Part shown: piece by piece, positions 5,729 through 15,612 of the stretch
Position numbering within the stretch: the first letter of the stretch is position 1
How the letters are laid out: each line of letters begins with the position of its first letter
Origin: Methylopila capsulata
GTDB taxonomy: Bacteria; Pseudomonadota; Alphaproteobacteria; Rhizobiales; Methylopilaceae
Reading direction: 5' to 3'
NCBI RefSeq assembly: GCF_016907975.1
Contig: NZ_JAFBCY010000004.1
Span: 248,001-312,000, forward strand
Length of the DNA stretch: 64,000 bases
Notes under the pieces: generated by a model
Told to the model about the DNA's origin: nothing
Database searches by the model: none
Seen by the model: the letters and a program-made list of their open reading frames with translations, nothing else
Made by a program: the position numbers and the translations under genes

Positions 5729-6583
5729 CTACGCCTTCGGCTTCGCCGGCCCCGTCTCCACGGGGCGGCCGCCGGCGCCCCACTCGGCCCACGAGCCATC
5801 GTAGATCCCCTCGGCCTTCGAGCCCACGCCCTCCAGCGCCAGCGCCAGGATCGCGGCGGAGACGCCTGACCCGCAGCTGGTGACGATCGGGCCGGCCACG
5901 TCGACGCCGGCGGCTTCGAACGCAGCGCGCAGCTCCGCCTCCTCGGCGAGCCGGCCGTCCTTCACCACCTGGTCGAACGGTACGTTGAGCGAGCCTGGAA
6001 TGTGGCCGAGCGCGAGGCCCGGGCGCGGCTCGGGCGCCTCGCCGCGGAAGCGGGGGGCGGGGCGGGCGTCGATCACCTGGAACAGGCCGGCGTCCACGCC
6101 CTCGGCCACCTGATCTCCGCTCTTCACGACGGCGGGGTCGAAGCGCGGGGTGAAGCTGGCCGGCCCGCGGGTCGAGGCGCCGCTTTCGAGCAGGCGCTCT
6201 TCGGCCTTCCATTTCGGCAGGCCGCCGTCGAGCACGTAGACGTCCTTCACGCCGAACGCCTTGAACGTCCACCACACGCGGGCCGCCGCGAACAGGCCCG
6301 CGCCGTCGTAAGCGACGATCGTCGCGCCGTCGCCGATCCCGAGCTTGCCCACCGCCTCGGCAAAGACGTCCGGCGTGGGCAGCATGTGCGGCAGGTCGGT
6401 GGACGTGTCCGCCACGACGTTGATGTCGAAGAACACGGCGCCGGGGATGTGGGCCTCGAGAAACTCGCTCGGTCCCTCGCGGTTCGCCGCGGGCAGGTAC
6501 CAGGAGCCGTCGACGGGGATGACCGTCGGGTCGCCGAGACGCTCGGCCAGCCATTCGGTGGAGACGAGGTTGGGGTTGGTCAC
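5729..6583 (-). CDS. sseA: 3-mercaptopyruvate sulfurtransferase (rhodanese family)
   Basis: A tandem-rhodanese sulfurtransferase that moves sulfur from 3-mercaptopyruvate to thiol or cyanide acceptors. The 284-residue product has an inactive N-terminal rhodanese domain and a catalytic C-terminal domain with Cys237 in CGSGVSA. The CGSGV loop is typical of mercaptopyruvate rather than thiosulfate enzymes (CRKGV). The GTG start at 6583 overlaps the cysK stop by 4 bp (GTGA), so translation is likely coupled. A longer in-frame extension upstream runs through cysK in another frame and is not credible. Together with cysK this forms a two-gene sulfur amino-acid unit. Confidence 0.93.
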   Translation of the reverse strand: MTNPNLVSTEWLAERLGDPTVIPVDGSWYLPAANREGPSEFLEAHIPGAVFFDINVVADTSTDLPHMLPTPDVFAEAVGKLGIGDGATIVAYDGAGLFAAARVWWTFKAFGVKDVYVLDGGLPKWKAEERLLESGASTRGPASFTPRFDPAVVKSGDQVAEGVDAGLFQVIDARPAPRFRGEAPEPRPGLALGHIPGSLNVPFDQVVKDGRLAEEAELRAAFEAAGVDVAGPIVTSCGSGVSAAILALALEGVGSKAEGIYDGSWAEWGAGGRPVETGPAKPKA

Positions 6584-7617
6584 TGCATCACCTTCCTGAG
6601 ATCGACCGTGCCCGGCTTCTCGAGCCAGGCCGGCGCCGGCAGCGCCTTCGAGCGCAGGAACTCCGGGTTGAACAGCTTGGATTGATAGCGCGTGCCGTAG
6701 TCGCAGAGGATCGTCACGATGGTGTGGCCGGGGCCGAGCTCCCGCGCCAGCCGGATCGCGCCAGCGACGTTGACGCCGGACGAGCCGCCGAGGCACAGCC
6801 CCTCGTGCTCCAGCAGGTCGAAGGCGATCTGCACGGCTTCCGCGTCCGGGATCCGGTAGGCGAAGTCGACCGGCGCGTCCTCGAGATTGGCCGTGATGCG
6901 GCCCTGGCCGATGCCCTCGGTGATCGAGGAGCCCTCGGCCTTCAGTTCGCCGGTGGTGTAGTAGCTGTAGAGCGCGGCGCCGGGCGGGTCGGCGAGGGCG
7001 ATCTTGACGTCCTTCGACCGCGCCTTCAGCGCCATGCCCGTGCCGGCGAGCGTGCCGCCGGTGCCGACCGCGGAGACGAATCCGTCCACCTTGCCGTCGA
7101 GGTCGTTCCAGATCTCAGGGCCGGTCCCGTCGATGTGCGCCTGCCGGTTCGCCACGTTGTCGAACTGGTTCGCCCAGATCGCGCCGTTCGGCTCCGTCTT
7201 CGCCAGTTCCTCGGCCAGTCGGCCAGAAAGCTTCACGTAGTTGTTCGGATCTTTGTAGGGAACGGCCGGCACCTCCACGAGCTCCGCGCCGGCGAGCCGG
7301 AGCATCTGCTTCTTCTCGTCGGACTGGGTGTCCGGAATGACGATCACAGTGCGGTAGCCGAGCGCGTTCGCGACCAGCGCGAGCCCGATGCCGGTGTTGC
7401 CGGCCGTGCCCTCCACGATGACGCCGCCGGGCTTCAGCTCGCCGCGCCTGACCGCGTCCTCGATGATCCAGAGCGCGGCGCGGTCCTTCACCGATTGGCC
7501 GGGGTTCATGAACTCCGCCTTGCCGAGAATGGCGCAGCCCGTCAGCTCGGAGGCCTGGCGCAGACGGATGAGCGGCGTCCGCCCGATGGCGTCGACCAGA
7601 CCGCTGCGGATGGTCAT
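6580..7617 (-). CDS. cysK: Cysteine synthase A (O-acetylserine sulfhydrylase)
   Basis: A PLP enzyme that makes cysteine from O-acetylserine and sulfide. The 345-residue protein has the PLP lysine K44 in NPGQSVKDR, the substrate loop EGTAGNTGIGLA, and the glycine-rich phosphate loop GTGGTLAGTG. I chose the ATG at 7617 because TGAGGTT sits about 7 nt upstream and the protein then begins MTIRSGLVDAIGRTPLIRL; 13 more codons upstream are possible but lack a site. The family also includes cystathionine beta-synthase-like enzymes, but no CBS domains are present. It is the first gene of the operon with sseA. The serine acetyltransferase cysE is at 51.3 kb. Confidence 0.93.
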   Translation of the reverse strand: MTIRSGLVDAIGRTPLIRLRQASELTGCAILGKAEFMNPGQSVKDRAALWIIEDAVRRGELKPGGVIVEGTAGNTGIGLALVANALGYRTVIVIPDTQSDEKKQMLRLAGAELVEVPAVPYKDPNNYVKLSGRLAEELAKTEPNGAIWANQFDNVANRQAHIDGTGPEIWNDLDGKVDGFVSAVGTGGTLAGTGMALKARSKDVKIALADPPGAALYSYYTTGELKAEGSSITEGIGQGRITANLEDAPVDFAYRIPDAEAVQIAFDLLEHEGLCLGGSSGVNVAGAIRLARELGPGHTIVTILCDYGTRYQSKLFNPEFLRSKALPAPAWLEKPGTVDLRKVMQ

Positions 7618-7734
7618 GAACAACCTCATTCGATAGATTAATCGCGAGGGCGGCACCGTAGTCTGGCGGCGTCGGCTTGAAAAGCGCGGCCGCCCCAGCT
7701 CCGACGCCCTGTGGCGAAAGGCGCGGGGAAACGA

Positions 7735-7764
7735 TAATCCATCAGGACAGGCCGCGCGTAACCA
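7735..7764 (+). promoter_or_regulatory. Candidate ECF (RpoE/ChrR-type) promoter of the cupin-SDR operon
   Basis: TAATCC (7735-7740), 18 nt, then TAACCA (7759-7764), about 60 nt before the GTG of the ChrR-like gene. The same layout, TGATCC-N18-TAGGCT, lies before the photolyase operon. As I recall it, the Rhodobacter RpoE consensus is close to TGATCC with a TA-starting -10 at similar spacing. The element is short, so this is a hypothesis supported mainly by its occurrence at both operons of one functional cluster. Confidence 0.4.
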
Positions 7765-7823: not shown

Positions 7824-8492
7824 GTGGCTTCGCCTTTCAGCCCAACGCCGGAAGACGCCTCCCGACCGATCGACGCGGTGCTCGCTGGGTATGTGGCGGG
7901 GGCGCTGGAGCCGCACATGCATGCGCTCATTACCGCCCATCTCATGCTGTCGGATGAGAACCGCGGCTTCGTTCGGGCCCTCGAGGCGGAAGCCGGCGCG
8001 GCGCTCGATCGCATCGACGCGCCGTTGCCGCAGCGCGTACCGCGCGACCATGTGCTCTCCGCGATCTACGCCGGCGGCTACTATGGGACCGGCCGTCCGG
8101 CGCAGCATGATCCGGAGCTTCCGTCGCCGCTCTTCCGTCTTGTCGGCAAGCCGCTCGACCAGCTGCCGTGGAAGCGAAAGCTGCCGGGACTGAAGGAGTG
8201 CAAGGTCTACGACAAAGGCGGCGTCGAGGCGGTGTTCTACCACATCTCGGCCGGTAGCCGGATGCCGAAGCACACCCACGCCGGGTCCGAAGCGACCCTG
8301 GTGCTGCGGGGCGCATTCCACGACGAGCGCGATCTCTATCGTCGCGGCGACGTCGCGCTGGCCGACGGCTTCGTCGAGCATAGGCCGACGACCAGCCGGG
8401 ACGAGGACTGCGTTTGCTTCGCCGTGACCGATGCGCCGCTGAAGATGACCGGGGCCGTGTGGAGCGTCCTGCAGAAACTGTTCGGCAAGTGA
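7824..8492 (+). CDS. ChrR-like cupin anti-sigma factor homologue lacking the zinc cysteines
   Basis: The 222-residue product aligns by eye with ChrR, the zinc anti-sigma factor that holds RpoE until singlet oxygen appears. The C-terminal cupin keeps the metal set H150-x-H152-x3-E156 and H186. In the N-terminal anti-sigma domain (VLAGYVAGAL onward) the expected H-x3-C-x2-C is H39-LML-S43-DE-N46. Both cysteines are therefore replaced, and the early histidine is missing too. No sigma factor gene lies beside it. The GTG at 7824 is preceded by GAGG at about 10 nt. The stop overlaps the next start by GTGA. It may be a sensor or cupin enzyme that no longer binds a sigma factor in the classical way. 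Confidence 0.85.
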   Translation: MASPFSPTPEDASRPIDAVLAGYVAGALEPHMHALITAHLMLSDENRGFVRALEAEAGAALDRIDAPLPQRVPRDHVLSAIYAGGYYGTGRPAQHDPELPSPLFRLVGKPLDQLPWKRKLPGLKECKVYDKGGVEAVFYHISAGSRMPKHTHAGSEATLVLRGAFHDERDLYRRGDVALADGFVEHRPTTSRDEDCVCFAVTDAPLKMTGAVWSVLQKLFGK

Positions 8493-9265
8493 AGGGCGTC
8501 GCGGTCGCCTGGGTGACCGGCGCGAGCTCCGGCATCGGACGCGCCGTCGCTCTCGAGCTCGCCCGGTCGGGCGTCGTGGTCGCCGCGACCGCCCGCCGCG
8601 AGGACGAACTTGCGAGCCTCGCGGCGGAGGCCGCAGGGTTCGGCGGTCGTGTCGCGGCCTATCCTGGCGACCTGTCCGATCCGGAGAGCCTGACGCCCTT
8701 GGCGGCGCGTATTGCGGCCGAGCTTGGGACGATCGATCTCGCCGTGCTGAACGCCGGCCTCTTCATCCCCGTTCGGGCCGTCCCTTTCGACGCCGACGCC
8801 TTCTACAAGACCTGCGACGTCAACCTGAAGGGCACGGTCGGTTGCCTCGCCGCGGTGCTTCCGGCGATGACCGCGCGACGGGGCGGCAAGATCGTGCTGG
8901 TGGCCTCCGTGACGGGCTACGCCGGCCTGCCCAGCTCCGCCGCCTACGGCGCCACCAAGGCGGCGCTGAACAATCTCGCGGAAAGCCTGAAGTTCGATCT
9001 CGACAGGGTCGGGGTCGCCATCCAGGTGGTGAACCCGGGCTTCGTCGACACGCCGGCGACCAAGCAGAACGACTTCAGGATGCCAGCGCTGCTGGCCGTC
9101 GACGACGCGGCGAAGCGCATCGTCGCCGGCATCGAGCGCGGCGGTTTCGAAATCACCTTCCCGAAGCGCTTCACCTACGTGCTGAAAGTTCTCAAGCTGC
9201 TGCCCTATCCCGCCTATTTCTGGCTGGTGACCAAGGCGACGGGCTGGGACAAGAAGACGGACTGA
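8489..9265 (+). CDS. Short-chain dehydrogenase/reductase of the photo-oxidative cluster
   Basis: A classical SDR oxidoreductase of 258 residues. The NAD(P)-binding motif TGASSGIG starts near residue 10, NAG follows near residue 86, and the catalytic Ser and Y-x3-K appear as SSAAYGATK. The GTG start at 8489 lies inside the stop of the ChrR-like gene (GTGA), so the two are very likely co-translated. It ends 11 bp from the convergent transporter gene. An SDR gene also belongs to the RpoE/ChrR regulon of Rhodobacter (the RSP_1087 group, from memory), which fits a role in lipid or aldehyde chemistry during singlet-oxygen stress. The substrate is unknown. Confidence 0.9.
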   Translation: MKGVAVAWVTGASSGIGRAVALELARSGVVVAATARREDELASLAAEAAGFGGRVAAYPGDLSDPESLTPLAARIAAELGTIDLAVLNAGLFIPVRAVPFDADAFYKTCDVNLKGTVGCLAAVLPAMTARRGGKIVLVASVTGYAGLPSSAAYGATKAALNNLAESLKFDLDRVGVAIQVVNPGFVDTPATKQNDFRMPALLAVDDAAKRIVAGIERGGFEITFPKRFTYVLKVLKLLPYPAYFWLVTKATGWDKKTD

Positions 9266-9276
9266 ACGGCGGGACG

Positions 9277-10605
9277 CTACGCTGCCGCCTCGATGCGGGC
9301 GCGAAGCTCCTTCTGCGAGGCTTCGTCGAGCGGAAAATTCCACATCAATCCGACCGCAAGCAGCTTCAGCGCGACGGGGAGGCCACCGTAGAGCCAGGCG
9401 AGGGTCGTGAGCCCGAGCGGTTCGCGCAATCCAGCCGCAGGGTCGAAACCGGTCGCGGCGAGCACAGGGAAGGCGAGGCCGACGGCGGCCGCGAGCGCCA
9501 GCTTGGTCGCGAGCCCCCAGGCGGCCAGATAAAGCCCGCTGCGCTGCTCGCCCGATGCGGCGGTGTCGACGTCGATCACGTCCGCCTGGATCGAGGGCGG
9601 CAGCGCAAGGTCGGCGCCGACGGCCGCTCCCGTGATCAGGCACACGACGCCGAACAGGACGACGTCGCCGGGGCCGAGCAGCGGCGCGAGCAGGAACACC
9701 GCGGACGCAAGCAGCATGGCGAGGCACCAGGCGCGGTGCTTCGAGGTCCGCCGCGCCAACCAGAGCCAGAGCGGCACGCCGAGCACCCCGGCCGCGAAGT
9801 AGGCGACGAGGAACGGTCCCGCGAGATCCGGCGCGCCCAGGCGTTCGCCGACGAAGAACAGGAACAGGGTCGCGGGCAGCCCGTTCGCGAAGCCGTTGAC
9901 GAAAAATGCGATTAACAGCCGGGCGAAGGCGGTGTTCGCCTTCATGGCCGCGAGACCTTCGCGAAAGCCCAGGCGCCGCCGTGAGGCGTCGACAGGTTCG
10001 GGCGTCAGCGTGAGCGTCCCGAGGGCGAGCAGCGGAAGGCCGAGGCCGACGAACACGGCGTAGGAGGCCAGCACCTCGGCCTGCCCGCCACCGGTCATCG
10101 CGGGGATGACCGCCTGCAGCGACAGCGCGATCAGCGTGCCGACAAGCGCCGCGCTCTCGCGCCATGCGGCGATCCGGCTACGGCCGGCGTAGGACGTGGA
10201 GAGCTCCGCGCCCCAGGCGTTGTAGGGCACCAGAGCCGCGGTCCAGGCGATCGACAGCGCCGCGCCCCAAAGCAGCAGGTAGCCGATCCCGTCGCCGTGC
10301 TCGGGCGTAAAGATCATCCACGACGCGATCGCGGTCGGCAGCATCGCGGCCGCGAACCAGAGACGGCGCCGGCCGAACCGCGGACGCCAGCGGTCCGCGA
10401 CGACGCCGACGGCGGGGTCCGCGATCGCGTCGATCAGCCGGACGGCCAGCAGGGCGTTGCCGACGGCCGCAAGCGGCAGGCCGAGGCCTTCCGCGTAGTA
10501 GCTCGGCACGACGATGTAGAGCGGCAGGGTGAGCGCCGCGAAGGGGATCGCGGGGAGGGCGTAGGCGACGAGGGCTGCGAGCGAGAGTTCGCGGCCGGTT
10601 CTCAT
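9277..10605 (-). CDS. MFS transporter (GPH/melibiose-carrier type), last gene of the phrB operon
   Basis: A 442-residue polytopic inner-membrane protein of the glycoside-pentoside-hexuronide (MelB-like) branch of MFS. The segments LIDAIADPAVGVVADR and RFGRRRLWFAAA match the conserved helix 2/loop 2-3 region (DxxxDPxxG and R-x-G-RRR). The ATG at 10605 overlaps the methyltransferase stop by ATGA. Membership of a fatty-acid-modification and DNA-repair operon suggests that it does not import sugar. Lipid, fatty acid or metabolite export is possible, but nothing in the sequence fixes the substrate. A similar carrier occurs in the Rhodobacter singlet-oxygen regulon, as I recall. Confidence 0.9.
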   Translation of the reverse strand: MRTGRELSLAALVAYALPAIPFAALTLPLYIVVPSYYAEGLGLPLAAVGNALLAVRLIDAIADPAVGVVADRWRPRFGRRRLWFAAAMLPTAIASWMIFTPEHGDGIGYLLLWGAALSIAWTAALVPYNAWGAELSTSYAGRSRIAAWRESAALVGTLIALSLQAVIPAMTGGGQAEVLASYAVFVGLGLPLLALGTLTLTPEPVDASRRRLGFREGLAAMKANTAFARLLIAFFVNGFANGLPATLFLFFVGERLGAPDLAGPFLVAYFAAGVLGVPLWLWLARRTSKHRAWCLAMLLASAVFLLAPLLGPGDVVLFGVVCLITGAAVGADLALPPSIQADVIDVDTAASGEQRSGLYLAAWGLATKLALAAAVGLAFPVLAATGFDPAAGLREPLGLTTLAWLYGGLPVALKLLAVGLMWNFPLDEASQKELRARIEAAA

Positions 10606-11894
10606 GCCCGTGCGAACACCACCTGGCGCACGTCGATGTTGCCGGAGCGGAACCCGGCCTCGCAGTAGGCGAGGTAGTACTCCCACAGCCTGCGGAAGCG
10701 TTCGTCGAAGCCGAGAGGCTGGATGGTCGGCCAGGCCGCACGGAAGCTCTTGCGCCACTCCACCAGCGTCTGCGCGTAGTCGACCCCGAAGATCTTCTCG
10801 GCCGCGACCGCGAGGCCCGCGGCCTTGGCGACATCGCGCAGAACTGTAGGCGACGGAAGCATGCCACCGGGGAAGACGTAGCGCTGTATGAAGTCGGTCT
10901 CGCGGCGGTAGGCGTCGAAGAGCCGGTCCTGGATGGTGATGACCTGGATGCCGGCGGCGGCGCCGGGCTTCAGCCGGTCGCGGACCTGCGAGAAATAAGT
11001 CGGCCACCAGCGTTCGCCGACCGCCTCGAACATTTCGATCGAGGCGACGCCGTCGTAGGAGCCGCGCTCGTCGCGGTAGTCCTGCAGCTTGAGCTCGACC
11101 CGCTCGGAGAGGCCTGCCTCGAACATCCGCTTACGGGCGTAATCGAGCTGCGCCGGGCTGATGGTGAGGCCGGTCACCTTGCAGCCGATTTCGGTGGCGG
11201 CGTACTCCGCGAAGCCGCCCCAGCCGCAGCCGATCTCGAGGATATGGTCGTCCGGCTTCGCGCCGATGGAGCACGCCAAGGTCTCGTACTTGCGCCGCTG
11301 CGCCGCCCCGAGGTCCTGCGCCCCGCCGTCGAAGATCGCGGAGGAGTAGGTCATCGTCGGGTCGAGCCACTGCTCGTAGAAGCGGTTTCCGAGATCGTAA
11401 TGCGCTTCGATGTTTCGTCGCGCGCCCTTCCGGGTGTTCCGGTTCAGCCAGTGTCGGACGTTCTGAAGCGCGCGGTAGAGCGGCTTCATCATCAGATGCT
11501 GCGAAACGTGGTCCACGTTGACGCAGAACAGCTCGAGGAAGGCGGTGACGTCCGGGCTGTCCCACTCGCCGTTGAGAAAGCCGTCGGCGACGCCGATGTC
11601 GCCGCCCTTCAGGATGCGGCGGGCGAAGCCGAGATCGCGCACGACGAGCGTTGCGTCGGGCCCCGGCTCGACCCCGTCGAACACCAGAGTGCGGCCGTCG
11701 GGGAAAGTCACGGACAGACGGCCGCGGGCGATGCGCGCCGCGACCTGCAGCGCGATGCGGACCTCCAGCGGCAGGCCCCGCGCGGCCTCCGCGACGTTGT
11801 CGAGCGTCACGCGCAACGGCGCGGCGGGCGGCGCAGGCTCCGGCAGGCGCGCGGGGAAGCTGGCGGGGCTCTGAGACATCGGGGCGGCGGTCAT
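10602..11894 (-). CDS. Cyclopropane-fatty-acid synthase family SAM methyltransferase
   Basis: A SAM-dependent enzyme acting on the double bonds of phospholipid acyl chains at the membrane. The 430-residue protein has an N-terminal lipid-binding region followed by the class I methyltransferase fold. Motif I is ILEIGCGWGGFAEYA (about residues 212-226), and YDGVASIEMFEAVGE and RYVFPGGMLPS are the usual later blocks of the Cfa family. Its start overlaps the DUF1365 stop (ATGA) and its stop overlaps the transporter start. Given its neighbours it may make methylated rather than cyclopropane acyl chains, feeding the flavoprotein and DUF1365 enzymes. Family assignment is firm; the product is inference. 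Confidence 0.92.
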   Translation of the reverse strand: MTAAPMSQSPASFPARLPEPAPPAAPLRVTLDNVAEAARGLPLEVRIALQVAARIARGRLSVTFPDGRTLVFDGVEPGPDATLVVRDLGFARRILKGGDIGVADGFLNGEWDSPDVTAFLELFCVNVDHVSQHLMMKPLYRALQNVRHWLNRNTRKGARRNIEAHYDLGNRFYEQWLDPTMTYSSAIFDGGAQDLGAAQRRKYETLACSIGAKPDDHILEIGCGWGGFAEYAATEIGCKVTGLTISPAQLDYARKRMFEAGLSERVELKLQDYRDERGSYDGVASIEMFEAVGERWWPTYFSQVRDRLKPGAAAGIQVITIQDRLFDAYRRETDFIQRYVFPGGMLPSPTVLRDVAKAAGLAVAAEKIFGVDYAQTLVEWRKSFRAAWPTIQPLGFDERFRRLWEYYLAYCEAGFRSGNIDVRQVVFARA

Positions 11895-12781
11895 GGCGCG
11901 GTCGTTTCCCGGACGGTCGGCGCCATGGCGCGGTCTTGAGGGCGGCGAGCCCCACGCCCGTGGCGTATGGGGCCTGGAGCGTCGTGGCTCGCAGGAGAAG
12001 GGGGCGGGTCATGGTCCACGAGGCGCGCGCCCTTGATCCAGAGCTTCAACGCCTCCCAGTGAATGCCGGCAAAAACCTTGAGGGTCATCAACGGCATGGC
12101 GCTGCAGAGACGCAGCAGCGCGCGGTCAGTGAGCGCCCGGCGCTCGCCGGCGAAGGTGGCGGCGAGGATCGGCCCTTCGGCGTCGCTCTCGAGGATGCGC
12201 AGCCGCACGCTGTCGGTCGGAGGGCGGATGCGGAAGGCGTAGCGCATCGCGGTCTCGAGGAAGGGCGAGACGTAGAACAGCTTGTCCCGCTCCTGCCGGA
12301 GTCCGGCTTCGGTGAGCTCGCCGTCCTTGACCGGGGCGACGTAGGCGTGGCGCTCGCCGAAGGTGTTGGTGACCTCGTAGACGACGGCGGTGAGGGCGCC
12401 TGCGTCGTCGTAGCGCCAATACACGCTCAAGGGATTGAACACGTAGCCGAGGATGCGGGGGTAGCAGAGCAGCAGCACGCGGCCGCCCTCCGGGTCCTGT
12501 CCGGCCCGCGCCAGCAGGCCGCGGACATGGGCCGACAGCGAGGAGCCGTCGGCCGGCCCGTGGTCGGACTCGTGGAAGCTCGCGAGATTGAACCGCCCGA
12601 CGGAGAACAGGCGCGCGGCGCGGCAAGCGACCTCAAGCCGGTCCAGATCGATCAACAAGGCGAACACCCGGTAAACAAACCGGTTAACAAACGGCTTCAG
12701 GCGCGCGTGCATCACCTCGCCCGGGTAGAGCGACGCGGCGGCCTCCGGCGGCCGGAAGGTGGGCGCCTCGTATCCCGTCAC
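11891..12781 (-). CDS. DUF1365 family protein (candidate furan fatty acid oxygen-inserting protein)
   Basis: The 296-residue protein starts at a GTG that overlaps the flavoprotein stop by 4 bp. Conserved DUF1365 blocks are visible: SLYPGEVMHARLKPFVNRFVY with its MHxR, then ILGYVFNPLSVYWRYD, YVSPF and MPLMTLKVFAGIHWEALKLW near the C-terminus. A basic, proline-rich tail of about 45 residues overlaps the next gene. In Rhodobacter and Rhodopseudomonas, DUF1365-type proteins travel with a flavin desaturase and a lipid methyltransferase. As I recall, this group supplies the UfaO step that puts O2-derived oxygen into a furan ring. That link here is inference from gene order. Confidence 0.88.
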   Translation of the reverse strand: MTGYEAPTFRPPEAAASLYPGEVMHARLKPFVNRFVYRVFALLIDLDRLEVACRAARLFSVGRFNLASFHESDHGPADGSSLSAHVRGLLARAGQDPEGGRVLLLCYPRILGYVFNPLSVYWRYDDAGALTAVVYEVTNTFGERHAYVAPVKDGELTEAGLRQERDKLFYVSPFLETAMRYAFRIRPPTDSVRLRILESDAEGPILAATFAGERRALTDRALLRLCSAMPLMTLKVFAGIHWEALKLWIKGARLVDHDPPPSPASHDAPGPIRHGRGARRPQDRAMAPTVRETTAP

Positions 12782-14085
12782 TCCGCGGCCTCGGCGAAGC
12801 TGGCTGCGCGCCACGGCGGCGCGGCTCCGAGAGCTTCCGCCACGGCGAGGCCTGATGACAAGCCGTCTTCGTGGAAGCCGTAGCCGGTCCACGCGCCGCA
12901 GAACCACGTCCGACGCTTGCCCTGGATCTCGGGCAACCGCCGCTGGGCGGCGAGCGCCTCGGCGTCGTACTGTGGATGGTCGTAGCGGAAGCGGGCGAAG
13001 GTCAGCGCCGGGTCGGGCTCGAACGGCGGGTTCAGCGTCACGAACAGCGGACGTTCGGGATCGATGCCCTGCAGCTCGTTCATCCAGTAGGTCACCGCGA
13101 CGTCGCGGGCGGCGACGGCGGGATCGGTCCGGCTGCCGAGGTAGTTCCAGGCCGACCACACCGCCTTGCGCCGCGGCATCAGGCGCGCATCCCTGTGCAG
13201 CCACACGTCGTTGGGGCGATACCGGATCGCGCCGAGCACCGCGCGCTCGGCGTCGCTGGCGTCGGTCAACAGCCTGAGCGACTCGTCGGTGTGCGACCCC
13301 AGGACCACCTGGTCGAACCGCTCGGCCCGGTCGGCGGCGTCCGTCACGGTGACGCCGAGGTCGTCGCGGGCGATCGACGCCACGGGCGCGCCGAGGCGCA
13401 GCCGATCGCGAAAGGGCGCGTTGAGCTTCTCGACGTAGGACCGGCTGCCGCCTTCGACCGTCCGCCAGATCGGACGCTCGTAGTTGATCAGCCGGTGGTT
13501 GGCGAAGAAGGCGACGAAGCTCTCCGCGGGGAAGTCCAACACGTGCGCCGCGGGCGTCGACCAGATCGCGGCCGCCATGGGGGCGAGGTAGTCCTCGCGG
13601 AAACGGCGGGCGAAGCGGCGCTTGTCCAGCCAGTCGCCGAGGCTGAGGCCGACCAGCGCGCCGGCCGCCTTGTCGGCGACGCAGAGCCTGTTGAACCGCA
13701 CCACCTCGCGCAGCATCCAGAGATAGGACGGCGCGACCAGGTTCCGGCGCTGGGCGAACAGTGCGCTCAGCGTCTTGCCCGACCACTCGAAGGCGCCCCG
13801 GTCCAGCGACAGCCCGAAGCTCATCTCGGTCGCCTTGGTGGCGACGCCGAGATGGTCGAACAAGGCGGTGAGGTTGGGGTAGTTCAGGCCGTTGTAGACG
13901 ATGAACCCGGTGTCGACGGCGATCCGCACGCCGTCGTAGTCCACGTCCACCGTGTGGCTGTGCCCGCCCGGACGCGGCTCGCGCTCGTAGACGGTGACGT
14001 CATGGTGGGGGTGGAGCGCGAAGGCGGCGCCGGCGCCGGAGATGCCGGCGCCGACGACGGCGATGCGCAGGCGGGACGTCGTCAT
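12778..14085 (-). CDS. FAD-dependent amine-oxidase-like protein (UfaD-type fatty acid desaturase candidate)
   Basis: A flavoprotein of 435 residues. It begins with the dinucleotide motif VVGAGISGAGAA and continues VYEREPRPGGHSHTVD, the NAD(P)/FAD-binding, amine-oxidase-like family. DTGFIVYNGLNYPNL is typical of the branch found beside DUF1365 and Cfa-like genes. The C-terminal FAD segment is TWFCGAWTGYGFHEDGLSSG. The ATG at 14085 overlaps the photolyase stop (ATGA). In the Rhodobacter singlet-oxygen regulon a homologue (UfaD, by my recollection) desaturates 11-methyl-octadecenoyl chains. An amine substrate is unlikely here. Family is clear, reaction is inferred from context. Confidence 0.92.
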   Translation of the reverse strand: MTTSRLRIAVVGAGISGAGAAFALHPHHDVTVYEREPRPGGHSHTVDVDYDGVRIAVDTGFIVYNGLNYPNLTALFDHLGVATKATEMSFGLSLDRGAFEWSGKTLSALFAQRRNLVAPSYLWMLREVVRFNRLCVADKAAGALVGLSLGDWLDKRRFARRFREDYLAPMAAAIWSTPAAHVLDFPAESFVAFFANHRLINYERPIWRTVEGGSRSYVEKLNAPFRDRLRLGAPVASIARDDLGVTVTDAADRAERFDQVVLGSHTDESLRLLTDASDAERAVLGAIRYRPNDVWLHRDARLMPRRKAVWSAWNYLGSRTDPAVAARDVAVTYWMNELQGIDPERPLFVTLNPPFEPDPALTFARFRYDHPQYDAEALAAQRRLPEIQGKRRTWFCGAWTGYGFHEDGLSSGLAVAEALGAAPPWRAASFAEAAE

Positions 14086-15548
14086 CGGTCTTTGATCCGG
14101 CCGAAGGCTTTCAGCGCGGCGTCGCGGGCGGCGTGATGGTCGACGATGCGCCGTGGGTAGGTCTCGCCCAGGGTCACTCCGGCGCGCTCGAGAACCTCGC
14201 GCGGGGCGTCCCACGGCTCGTGGATGTGCTTCGCGGGGACGTCCTTCAACTCGGGAACGAAGGCGCGCACGTAGTCTCCCTGCGGGTCGAACTTTTTCCC
14301 CTGAAGCGAGGGGTTGAACACCCTGAAGTACGGCGCGGCGTCGGCGCCGGATCCCGCCACCCACTGCCAACTCGCGGAATTGTTCGCCGGGTCGGCGTCG
14401 ACCAGCGTGTCCCAGAACCAGTCCTCGCCCTCGCGCCAGTCGATCATCAGGTCCTTGATCAGGAACGAGGCGCAGATCATCCGCACCCGGTTGTGCATCC
14501 AGCCCGTCGTCCAGAGCTGCCGCATACCGGCGTCGACGATCGGAAAACCTGTGAGGCCCTTTCGCCAGGCCTTCCGATGCGCAGAGTCCGGGGTTTTCCA
14601 GGGGAAGGCGTCGAACCGCGCGTTAAAGTTCTTGGTGGCGAGGTCTGGGTTGCCGTGGAGCAGGTGATACGAGAACTCCCGCCACCCGAGCTCCGAGCGA
14701 AACTTCTCGACGTCCGTCGCCGTCGCGTCGCCCTCGGCTTTCGCCCGCTCGACCGCGTGCCACAGCTGATAGGGGCTCACCTCGCCGAACCGCAGGTGCG
14801 GCGACATCCGCGACACGTGCGGCTGGTCCGGCCGGTCGCGGCCATCCGCGTAGCCGCGCAGGCCGTGGTCGATGAAATCCGTCAGCGCCGCGCGCGCGCC
14901 GGTCTCCCCCGGCGTCCAGGCCTCCCGCAGCCCGCCGGCCCAGTCGGGCGTCGTCGGCTCCAGGTCGAGGTCGTCGACCGTCAGGCCCTTCAGCGCCGGC
15001 GCCGCGGCGATCTTGCCCTTGCGTGGCCTTGGCAGCGGCGGGCGCGGTTCGCCCCGCGCCATGCAGGCGCGCCAGAACGGCGAGTAGACCTTGAGGGGCT
15101 CGCCGGCCTTGGACGTGACCTCCCAGGGCTCGAACATCAGGCGCGCGTTGAAGCTCTCGACCTCGCGGCCGTCCTTGCGAAGGCGTTCCTTGAGCGCCGC
15201 GTCGATCTGGTTCTCCGACGCGACGTAGCGCCGGTTCCACAGCACCATGTCGGCCCCGGTCTCCTCGACGGCGGCGGGCACGACCTCGGCCGTCTTGCCC
15301 CGTCGGATCACGAAGGGAAAGCCGATCGCCGCGCAGTCCCTCGCAAGCGCGCGCAGCGATTGCGCCAGCCACCAGCGCGAGGCGCCGCCGAGCGGCCGAG
15401 GTCCGTGCGTGGCGTCGTCGAAGACATAGAGGCCGAGCGCCGGCTTGCCCGAGTCCAGGGCGGCGTGGAGCGCGGGATTGTCGGCGAGGCGCAAATCCTC
15501 GCGGAACCACACGAGCGCGCAGGACGAGGGCTTTCCGGAGGAGGGCAT
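14082..15548 (-). CDS. phrB: Deoxyribodipyrimidine photolyase
   Basis: A light-driven flavoenzyme that splits cyclobutane pyrimidine dimers. The 488-residue protein has the N-terminal antenna domain (ALVWFREDLRLADNPAL) and the C-terminal FAD domain with ELGWREFSYHLL, GFPIVDAGMRQLWTTGWMHN, DADPANNSASWQWVAGSG, RVFNPSLQGKKFDPQGDYVR and FVPEL, all standard class I CPD photolyase blocks. It is the first gene of a five-gene minus-strand operon; each gene overlaps the next by 4 bp. Photolyase genes are known members of RpoE/ChrR regulons. A candidate promoter of that type lies 35 nt upstream. Confidence 0.96.
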   Translation of the reverse strand: MPSSGKPSSCALVWFREDLRLADNPALHAALDSGKPALGLYVFDDATHGPRPLGGASRWWLAQSLRALARDCAAIGFPFVIRRGKTAEVVPAAVEETGADMVLWNRRYVASENQIDAALKERLRKDGREVESFNARLMFEPWEVTSKAGEPLKVYSPFWRACMARGEPRPPLPRPRKGKIAAAPALKGLTVDDLDLEPTTPDWAGGLREAWTPGETGARAALTDFIDHGLRGYADGRDRPDQPHVSRMSPHLRFGEVSPYQLWHAVERAKAEGDATATDVEKFRSELGWREFSYHLLHGNPDLATKNFNARFDAFPWKTPDSAHRKAWRKGLTGFPIVDAGMRQLWTTGWMHNRVRMICASFLIKDLMIDWREGEDWFWDTLVDADPANNSASWQWVAGSGADAAPYFRVFNPSLQGKKFDPQGDYVRAFVPELKDVPAKHIHEPWDAPREVLERAGVTLGETYPRRIVDHHAARDAALKAFGRIKDR

Positions 15549-15582: not shown

Positions 15583-15612
15583 AGCCTACGGCTGGGGCCG
15601 GGCGACGGATCA
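15583..15612 (-). promoter_or_regulatory. Candidate ECF promoter of the phrB operon
   Basis: Read on the minus strand: TGATCC (15612-15607), 18 nt, TAGGCT (15588-15583), which places the -10 about 35 nt before the phrB ATG. It matches the layout TAATCC-N18-TAACCA found before the ChrR-like gene and resembles the RpoE/ChrR promoter as I recall it. The -35 sits in the loop of a perfect dyad GGCGAC-ggatca-GTCGCC (15601-15618), which may be a protein-binding site or a chance palindrome. Confidence 0.45.

Follow-up and report, generated by a model that had tools for sequence, protein, structure and literature searches.

A ChrR-like protein of Methylopila capsulata without anti-sigma zinc ligands, probably the anti-sigma factor of an unlinked RpoE-type sigma factor

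In R. sphaeroides, inhibition by the anti-sigma factor ChrR requires the zinc of its anti-sigma domain (PMC6852236), and in the ECF11 group all members are described as linked to a ChrR-like gene, with the zinc domain as its signature (PMC3597554). What, then, is a ChrR-like protein that has neither the zinc ligands nor a sigma gene beside it? This question is raised by a gene of M. capsulata located in a stretch of 64,000 nucleotides (here called the window; positions refer to it).

A ChrR clade without anti-sigma zinc ligands

The ChrR-like open reading frame (Table 1) begins with GTG and encodes 222 amino acids. Over residues 15 to 221, its product scores 136.7 bits with TIGR02451 (ChrR family; cut-off, 124.5); Pfam reports a Cupin_7 match, and the top PDB chain is 2z2s_B, R. 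sphaeroides ChrR, with an E value of 1.6e-30. In the alignment to R. sphaeroides ChrR, the cupin ligands H141, H143, E147, and H177 correspond to H150, H152, E156, and H186, and the anti-sigma zinc positions H31, C35, and C38 correspond to H39, S43, and N46; no counterpart of H6, i.e., no histidine just N-terminal of helix 1, was found. The first-pass annotation had listed all four cupin ligands as present and the anti-sigma zinc site (S43, N46, no early histidine) as lost, and the alignment bears out both statements. With H39-x3-S43-x2-N46 and no early histidine in place of the zinc motif H/C-X24/25-H-X3-C-X2-C, the protein is not a ZAS protein.

Misalignment of the N terminus was ruled out, as the HMM, phmmer, and MAFFT alignments concur and the structural model described below aligns from residue 6 of 2q1z_B on, with the same columns in the relatives. 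A pseudogene was ruled out as well, since the frame is open and conserved within the clade. The loss of the ligands is not a chance event, because both cysteines are gone wherever the gene occurs in the same genus (11 of 11 genomes, counting the own one) and in 20 further genomes of the order.

AlphaFold2 was used to predict the structure with 22 clade sequences, giving a mean pLDDT of 81.9 and helices at residues 15 to 25, 30 to 42, 47 to 62, and 74 to 83. Block pLDDT values are 82 to 96 over residues 11 to 60 and only 56 to 57 over residues 71 to 90; the first three anti-sigma helices are thus confidently predicted, whereas the fourth, which contacts sigma-2 in known complexes, is uncertain. 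With long low-confidence stretches omitted, the top VIA-align match of the model is 2q1z_B (Z 20.6; rmsd 3.1; 171 aligned residues; residues 14 to 203), and the next non-ChrR chain, with Z 14.4, covers the cupin only. The model accordingly places the predicted anti-sigma and cupin domains in the ChrR arrangement, helix 4 being of low confidence.

A TIGR02451 search of 101 genomes (own genome and 100 relatives) gave matches in 75, of which 66 have a complete ChrR; this term omits nine genomes with partial, cupin-only matches. In 31 of the 66, a ChrR without the cysteines occurs without an adjoining RpoE-type sigma gene, "beside" being defined as within 300 bases on one contig and many assemblies being drafts; all 31 genomes carry an RpoE-type sigma factor elsewhere. 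Cysteine is absent at the C35 and C38 positions in 31/31 of these clade proteins, and no histidine lies within the four residues before helix 1 in 30/31, whereas the H31 position (H39 in the window protein) holds histidine in 28/31. The commonest triad is H-S-N (16/31); Y-L-R, L-R-V, and Y-S-A also occur and are evidence against a metal site there. ChrRs with the canonical H-C-C triad (HCC) have the sigma gene within 300 bases in 30 of 31 cases.

One genome, G076, has two ChrRs, the clade member L122 and the HCC protein L108; no RpoE-type sigma gene was found in the 13-kb stretch around its HCC chrR. It is counted by its Cys-less copy in the trees and in the 31-genome counts, whereas the linkage table uses the HCC copy and therefore holds 30 Cys-less proteins and one HCC protein apart from the sigma gene. 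In G008 (L062), a genome that is 88% complete, chrR lies in two abutting pieces and looks broken by a frameshift or sequencing error. The ChrR of G070 (L056) has MKNCP near the position of the early histidine and may thus have a C-H-C-C pattern of the kind known from RsrA.

Outside the clade, two genomes of one genus, G036 (L120) and G081 (L031), have ChrRs that also lack both cysteines (H-N-T and H-S-A); unlike those of the clade, they are sigma-adjacent, and they branch at different places among the canonical ChrRs of the tree, so that zinc was lost separately, more than once. The ChrRs of G015, G016, and G017 (L039, L044, and L028), which belong to a sister genus from the same family as the window, read H-C-S, with one cysteine lost and the sigma gene adjacent, and likewise group with the canonical ChrRs. 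The two genera thus have different ChrR types.

The anti-sigma domain does not look like a plain relic, as it is about as conserved as the cupin: the mean pairwise identities of the two domains are 0.43 and 0.47 within the clade and 0.41 and 0.41 in the rest. For pairs with a cupin identity of 0.5 to 0.6, the clade shows less anti-sigma identity than the rest (0.43 versus 0.49), and for pairs at 0.3 to 0.4 it shows more (0.43 versus 0.39). Among 22 sequences, G26 is invariant, and A21, Y23, and L28 are conserved in at least 90%. A large hydrophobic residue occupies position 16, adjoining the lost early histidine, in 28/31 clade proteins versus 0/35 in the rest, and position 49, just past the lost second cysteine, in 27/31 versus 5/35. 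These two hydrophobic residues may replace the zinc clamp, and the anti-sigma domain would hold no metal.

Further relatives were collected by a GTDB genome scan with a seven-sequence clade alignment, via a motif in the cupin domain; the counts given for named loci refer to the best 80 of 90 loci. Their titles include Methylopila, Hansschlegelia, Bosea, Alsobacter, Prosthecomicrobium, Stappia, Roseibium, Pannonibacter, and Chthonobacter, along with many Hyphomicrobiales or Beijerinckiaceae assemblies, and the best of these matches, from Methylopila sp. Yamaguchi, is 91% identical. The cupin ligands are present in 80/80. One locus (L242) does not cover the anti-sigma domain; the other 79 all lack cysteine at both zinc positions, a figure that cannot be generalized to all ChrRs, because the loci were found with a zinc-less alignment. 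In 8 of the 79 proteins, histidine occurs among the four residues preceding helix 1, and an RpoE-type sigma gene was found in 0/80 of these loci, with flanks of up to 8 kb.

An unlinked RpoE-type sigma factor

The own genome contains 24 TIGR02937 matches, 18 of them over the cut-off and some belonging to longer, non-ECF sigma factors. None of the 24 lies in the 64-kb window, in agreement with the first-pass annotation, which had noted that no ECF sigma gene stands beside chrR. The search for an ECF11-type sigma factor that it had proposed was successful: a single RpoE-type sigma gene (L006; G000:C2:798999-799574, minus strand) was found, on another contig than chrR. Among PDB chains it scores highest with 2q1z_A, R. 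sphaeroides RpoE (136.5 bits; next, 77.2), and it is the best own match for the sigma genes beside canonical ChrRs in 26 of 26 listed cases. The canonical rpoE-chrR arrangement, with chrR directly behind the sigma gene, thus does not occur in this genome. Pfam assigns the neighbors of the sigma gene to a zinc-type dehydrogenase and an IalB-family protein, so another anti-sigma factor is not among its two own-genome neighbors. The location is conserved, the IalB cluster being present in 21/21 stretches and the cluster holding the dehydrogenase in 16/21 (by clustering only).

A second canonical chrR, for which the same annotation had suggested looking, was not found in the genome. PF12973 detects two proteins, the window ChrR and L001; the latter was rejected as a canonical ChrR, as it has 190 residues and Pfam shows only cupin families and no anti-sigma family. 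Its gene adjoins a Fer2-domain oxidoreductase-like gene.

Presence of the sigma factor follows that of ChrR closely. In the 101 genomes, which are related and hence non-independent, the RpoE-type sigma factor occurs in 66 of 66 with a complete ChrR and in 1 of 35 without. The phi coefficient, from presence lists compiled by hand, is 0.978 for this sigma factor; two other sigma factors of the own genome give 0.23 and -0.05. Two genomes of the same genus, G001 and G002, lack both ChrR and the RpoE-type sigma factor. In 22 genomes chosen from the 80 named loci, of which 5 repeat the first set and 17 are new, it was present in 22. The term "orphan" used in the first-pass annotation therefore holds for linkage and not otherwise, as the one RpoE-type sigma gene of the genome tracks ChrR over the 101 genomes.

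The ChrR tree and the sigma tree, the latter built from the best-scoring stretch of each frame, contain an identical 31-genome clade with UFBoot 100 each, and the simplest account of this is one ancestral split followed by joint inheritance. A mirror-tree correlation of r 0.66 was obtained, uncorrected for species phylogeny. As a clade protein beside the sigma gene was seen in no genome, the ChrR-sigma pairing is a statistical one.

Regulon-like neighborhood and predicted promoters

Two further observations of the first-pass annotation were confirmed. The chrR stop codon (8490-8492) overlaps the GTG start of the SDR gene by four bases, and the opposite strand carries a ChrR-regulon-like operon encoding an MFS_2/GPH symporter, a CMAS-family protein, a DUF1365 protein, an FAD amine oxidase, and a photolyase (Table 1).

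Table 1. Features at the chrR locus (window positions)
Feature	Position	Strand	Remarks
Predicted ECF11-type promoter before chrR	7735..7762	+	TAATCC-N16-CGTAAC; 10/12 consensus positions
chrR-like gene	7824..8492	+	class I anti-sigma domain, about 14-83, without zinc ligands; cupin, about 105-210, with four metal ligands
SDR gene	8489..9265	+	SDR-family frame in 27/31 clade stretches and in 71/80 named loci
MFS_2/GPH symporter gene	9277..10617	-	predicted start uncertain
CMAS-family gene (cyclopropane fatty acid synthase type)	10602..11894	-	
DUF1365 gene	11891..12769	-	
FAD amine-oxidase-like gene	12778..14088	-	
DNA photolyase/cryptochrome gene (phr)	14082..15548	-	first gene of the opposite operon
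Predicted ECF11-type promoter before phr	15585..15612	-	TGATCC-N16-CGTAGG; 11/12 consensus positions

On the other side of chrR, window positions 5729-7656 hold cysK and a gene that we take to be thiosulfate-sulfurtransferase-like, conserved in 26/31 and 27/31 relatives, respectively. In the 31 clade stretches, which span 3 to 13 kb and are in some cases shorter at their ends, cysK was found in 26, SDR in 27, cfa in 21, DUF1365 in 20, FAD oxidase in 20, phr in 18, and the symporter in 14; an RpoE-type sigma gene was found in 0/31.

Among the RSP numbers, the DUF1365 protein is presumably RSP_1090, and the window gene is likely its counterpart. The R. sphaeroides RpoE regulon includes phrA, cfaS, RSP_1091-1090, RSP_1089, and RSP_1087 (PMC7074977, PMC3818230), with RSP_1087 an SDR and RSP_1089 a GPH symporter (PMC7074977); the window CMAS-family gene is of the same type as RSP_2144 cfaS, judged by name. 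Since the neighbors match these families, the window appears to gather the core regulon in a single cluster; the basis of this matching is the gene family, not a tree. In R. sphaeroides, ChrR is degraded under singlet oxygen in an RSP_1090-dependent manner, and full RpoE activation needs RSP_1090 together with RSP_1091 (PMC3818230); the position of their likely counterparts opposite chrR fits this role. Conservation of RSP_1089-1087 is described as confined to Rhodobacteraceae (PMC3818230). Many Hyphomicrobiales have an SDR gene (71/80) or a GPH-type symporter gene (40/80) beside chrR, by family-level match among the best 80 of 90 named loci.

Promoter sites were predicted with the ECF11-type consensus TGATCC-N15/16/17-CGTAA[AG], at least 10 of 12 positions being required within 200 bases upstream. 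Random windows reach this threshold in 2.3 to 4.6% of cases, and about six chance matches at 10 of 12 positions are expected per strand per 64 kb. A predicted site precedes chrR at 26 of 31 clade loci, mostly with 15 to 16 bases between the boxes. The hits from which the consensus was read included three of the 31 zinc-less chrR sites, and the count without them is 23/28. Of the domain-covering named loci (best 80 of 90), 75/79 have such a site, versus 4.3% in random sequence, and among the sigma-adjacent operons it occurs in 24/35, five with an incomplete zinc motif included. The chrR site of the window itself departs from the consensus (TAATCC), which counts against the proposed regulation.

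Elsewhere at the clade loci, the predicted site was found upstream of phr in 5/7, of SDR in 1/27, and of cysK, AOX, and CFA in 0/26, 0/17, and 0/20, respectively. A wider check gave a phr site with at least 10 of 12 positions in 7 of 10 other clade genomes. It was missing in G004, G068, and G097 even though the sigma factor is present there, which again speaks against the proposed regulation; it was also missing in G001, G002, and G013, all without the sigma factor, and in the canonical G099. G004 has a Cys-less chrR (L058) preceded by an ECF11-type site and has kept the sigma factor, whereas a DUF1365 gene was not found and chrR has no SDR, cfa, or AOX gene next to it; the pair thus outlives the operon.

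Upstream of the orphan sigma gene, a predicted ECF11-type site was found in 0/31 clade genomes. With sites before chrR and none before the sigma gene, only the anti-sigma gene of the pair is a predicted target, so that the clade is predicted to reverse the emphasis of the autoregulated rpoE-chrR operon. A genome-wide search with TGATCC-N15-17-CGTA yielded 15 sites versus 1 in the control. Of 12 stretches (14 sites) inspected by eye, about four (L154, L155, L159, and L162) show a site closely followed by a plausible gene start; with so few such stretches, no further targets are claimed.

Function of the zinc-less ChrR

Taken together, we consider it probable that the window gene encodes an ECF11 (RpoE-type) singlet-oxygen-response anti-sigma factor that works without a zinc clamp and in trans, a reading drawn from sequence comparison. 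Co-occurrence, trees, and domain conservation give good support to what the first-pass annotation had offered as one of its options, an anti-sigma factor working without zinc; sigma binding is the part that we infer. The annotation had also said what would undo its own reading, namely, that the usual ChrR of this clade lacks the cysteines and still binds its sigma factor. The former was found, and only the latter is a matter of inference. The zinc requirement in R. sphaeroides, with which this report opened, counts against a zinc-free anti-sigma factor. Further points against the reading are the low confidence of helix 4, the lower anti-sigma identity of clade pairs at cupin identities of 0.5 to 0.6, the H39 retained in 28/31 clade proteins, and the histidine near helix 1 in 8 of the 79 named proteins.

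The other option of the annotation was a repurposed cupin, i.e., an RpoE-regulated cupin enzyme or sensor that has lost sigma binding and carries its N-terminal domain as a relic. The missing zinc site, the sigma gene not adjoining, the cupin ligands kept in all of the best 80 of 90 named loci, the overlap with the SDR gene, and the poorly predicted fourth helix would all suit such a protein. Yet the anti-sigma domain is on average about as conserved as the cupin (including the invariant G26 and A21, Y23, and L28 at 90% or more), helices 1 to 3 keep the fold in the model, and the orphan sigma factor would be left with no known anti-sigma factor although it is kept or lost together with ChrR; this option is thus not supported, and we consider it unlikely. 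A zinc-independent anti-sigma factor might instead serve another own sigma factor, given that ChrR is linked to none of the 18 TIGR02937 matches over the cut-off, some of which are not ECFs by length. The two others that were checked do not track ChrR, however, and the predicted ECF11-type promoter before chrR and the clade common to the sigma and ChrR trees also point to the RpoE-type factor, making another partner quite improbable.

Finally, the anti-sigma domain might bind metal through other ligands, either H39 with S43/N46 or residues of the cupin domain. H39 is kept in 28/31 and N46 in 21/31 clade proteins, and mixed two-domain coordination has been proposed for oxidized ChrR (PMC6432622), but the triads Y-L-R, L-R-V, and Y-S-A among clade members, the occurrence of S, N, K, R, T, L, H, or A at the first cysteine position, and the absence of the early-position histidine in 30/31 make us think this very unlikely indeed.

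For the zinc-free anti-sigma factor acting in trans, the following mechanism may be proposed. Hydrophobic packing instead of zinc would hold the anti-sigma domain together, and this domain would sequester the unlinked sigma factor. The signal would be received by the metal-bearing cupin, which would then cause ChrR to be released or degraded, and the freed sigma factor would transcribe chrR-SDR and the phr-FAD oxidase-DUF1365-cfa-symporter operon, raising photolyase, fatty-acid-type enzymes, and ChrR itself. With chrR a predicted target and the sigma gene not, this would amount to negative feedback on the sigma factor without control of its own gene. We regard as evenly poised the wider proposition that in a Hyphomicrobiales branch of many families, the rpoE-chrR operon was split once, the zinc finger was dropped, and the domain was rebuilt on hydrophobic residues, with singlet oxygen sensed by the cupin alone (or via fatty-acid products of the operon) and with the anti-sigma gene, not the sigma gene, in the feedback loop.

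Compared with ChrR-RpoE of R. sphaeroides (ECF11; PDB 2Q1Z and 2Z2S), the window system is alike in the two-domain fold, the cupin metal ligands, anti-sigma helix 1, the promoter type, and the neighbor families (photolyase, CMAS, DUF1365/FAD oxidase, GPH symporter, and SDR). It differs in that the anti-sigma zinc ligands are missing, chrR and the sigma gene are unlinked, chrR overlaps the SDR gene, and an ECF11-type site upstream of the sigma gene was not found. RseA of E. coli is a membrane protein and, to our knowledge, has no cupin. By description, the only basis of this comparison, it shares a class I anti-sigma fold without zinc, which it keeps via protein contacts instead (PMC6852236). 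The ZAS proteins RsrA and RslA belong to the same anti-sigma class as the clade proteins, but the HxxxCxxC motif is theirs only (PMC6432622). About 44% of class I anti-sigma domains, and 28% of the soluble ones, lack the zinc motif (PMC7406223), and Nuss noted in 2013 that one chrR of Rhizobium etli has no adjoining rpoE (PMC3818230). Zinc-less class I domains in general are thus known; of a zinc-less ChrR clade or its unlinked sigma factor, no description was found in the open-licence literature searched, and these appear to be new.

Whether the zinc finger of ChrR is the singlet-oxygen sensor is under debate. A zinc-finger model peptide shows a fast reaction with singlet oxygen (PMC6432622), whereas in vivo the cupin domain is needed; according to a review, the role of the ChrR zinc is unknown (PMC6852236). 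The clade is a natural experiment on this point, with the regulon genes, the promoter type, the sigma factor, and the cupin site kept and the zinc finger gone. Should bacteria of the clade prove responsive to singlet oxygen, the finger would not be indispensable as a sensor, and if the cupin alone does the sensing, zinc-finger oxidation is not needed for it in the ChrR family. More generally, the results suggest that an ECF sigma factor and its anti-sigma factor may remain partners across many families even though their operon has broken up, and cataloguing anti-sigma factors by gene neighborhood would miss such split pairs.
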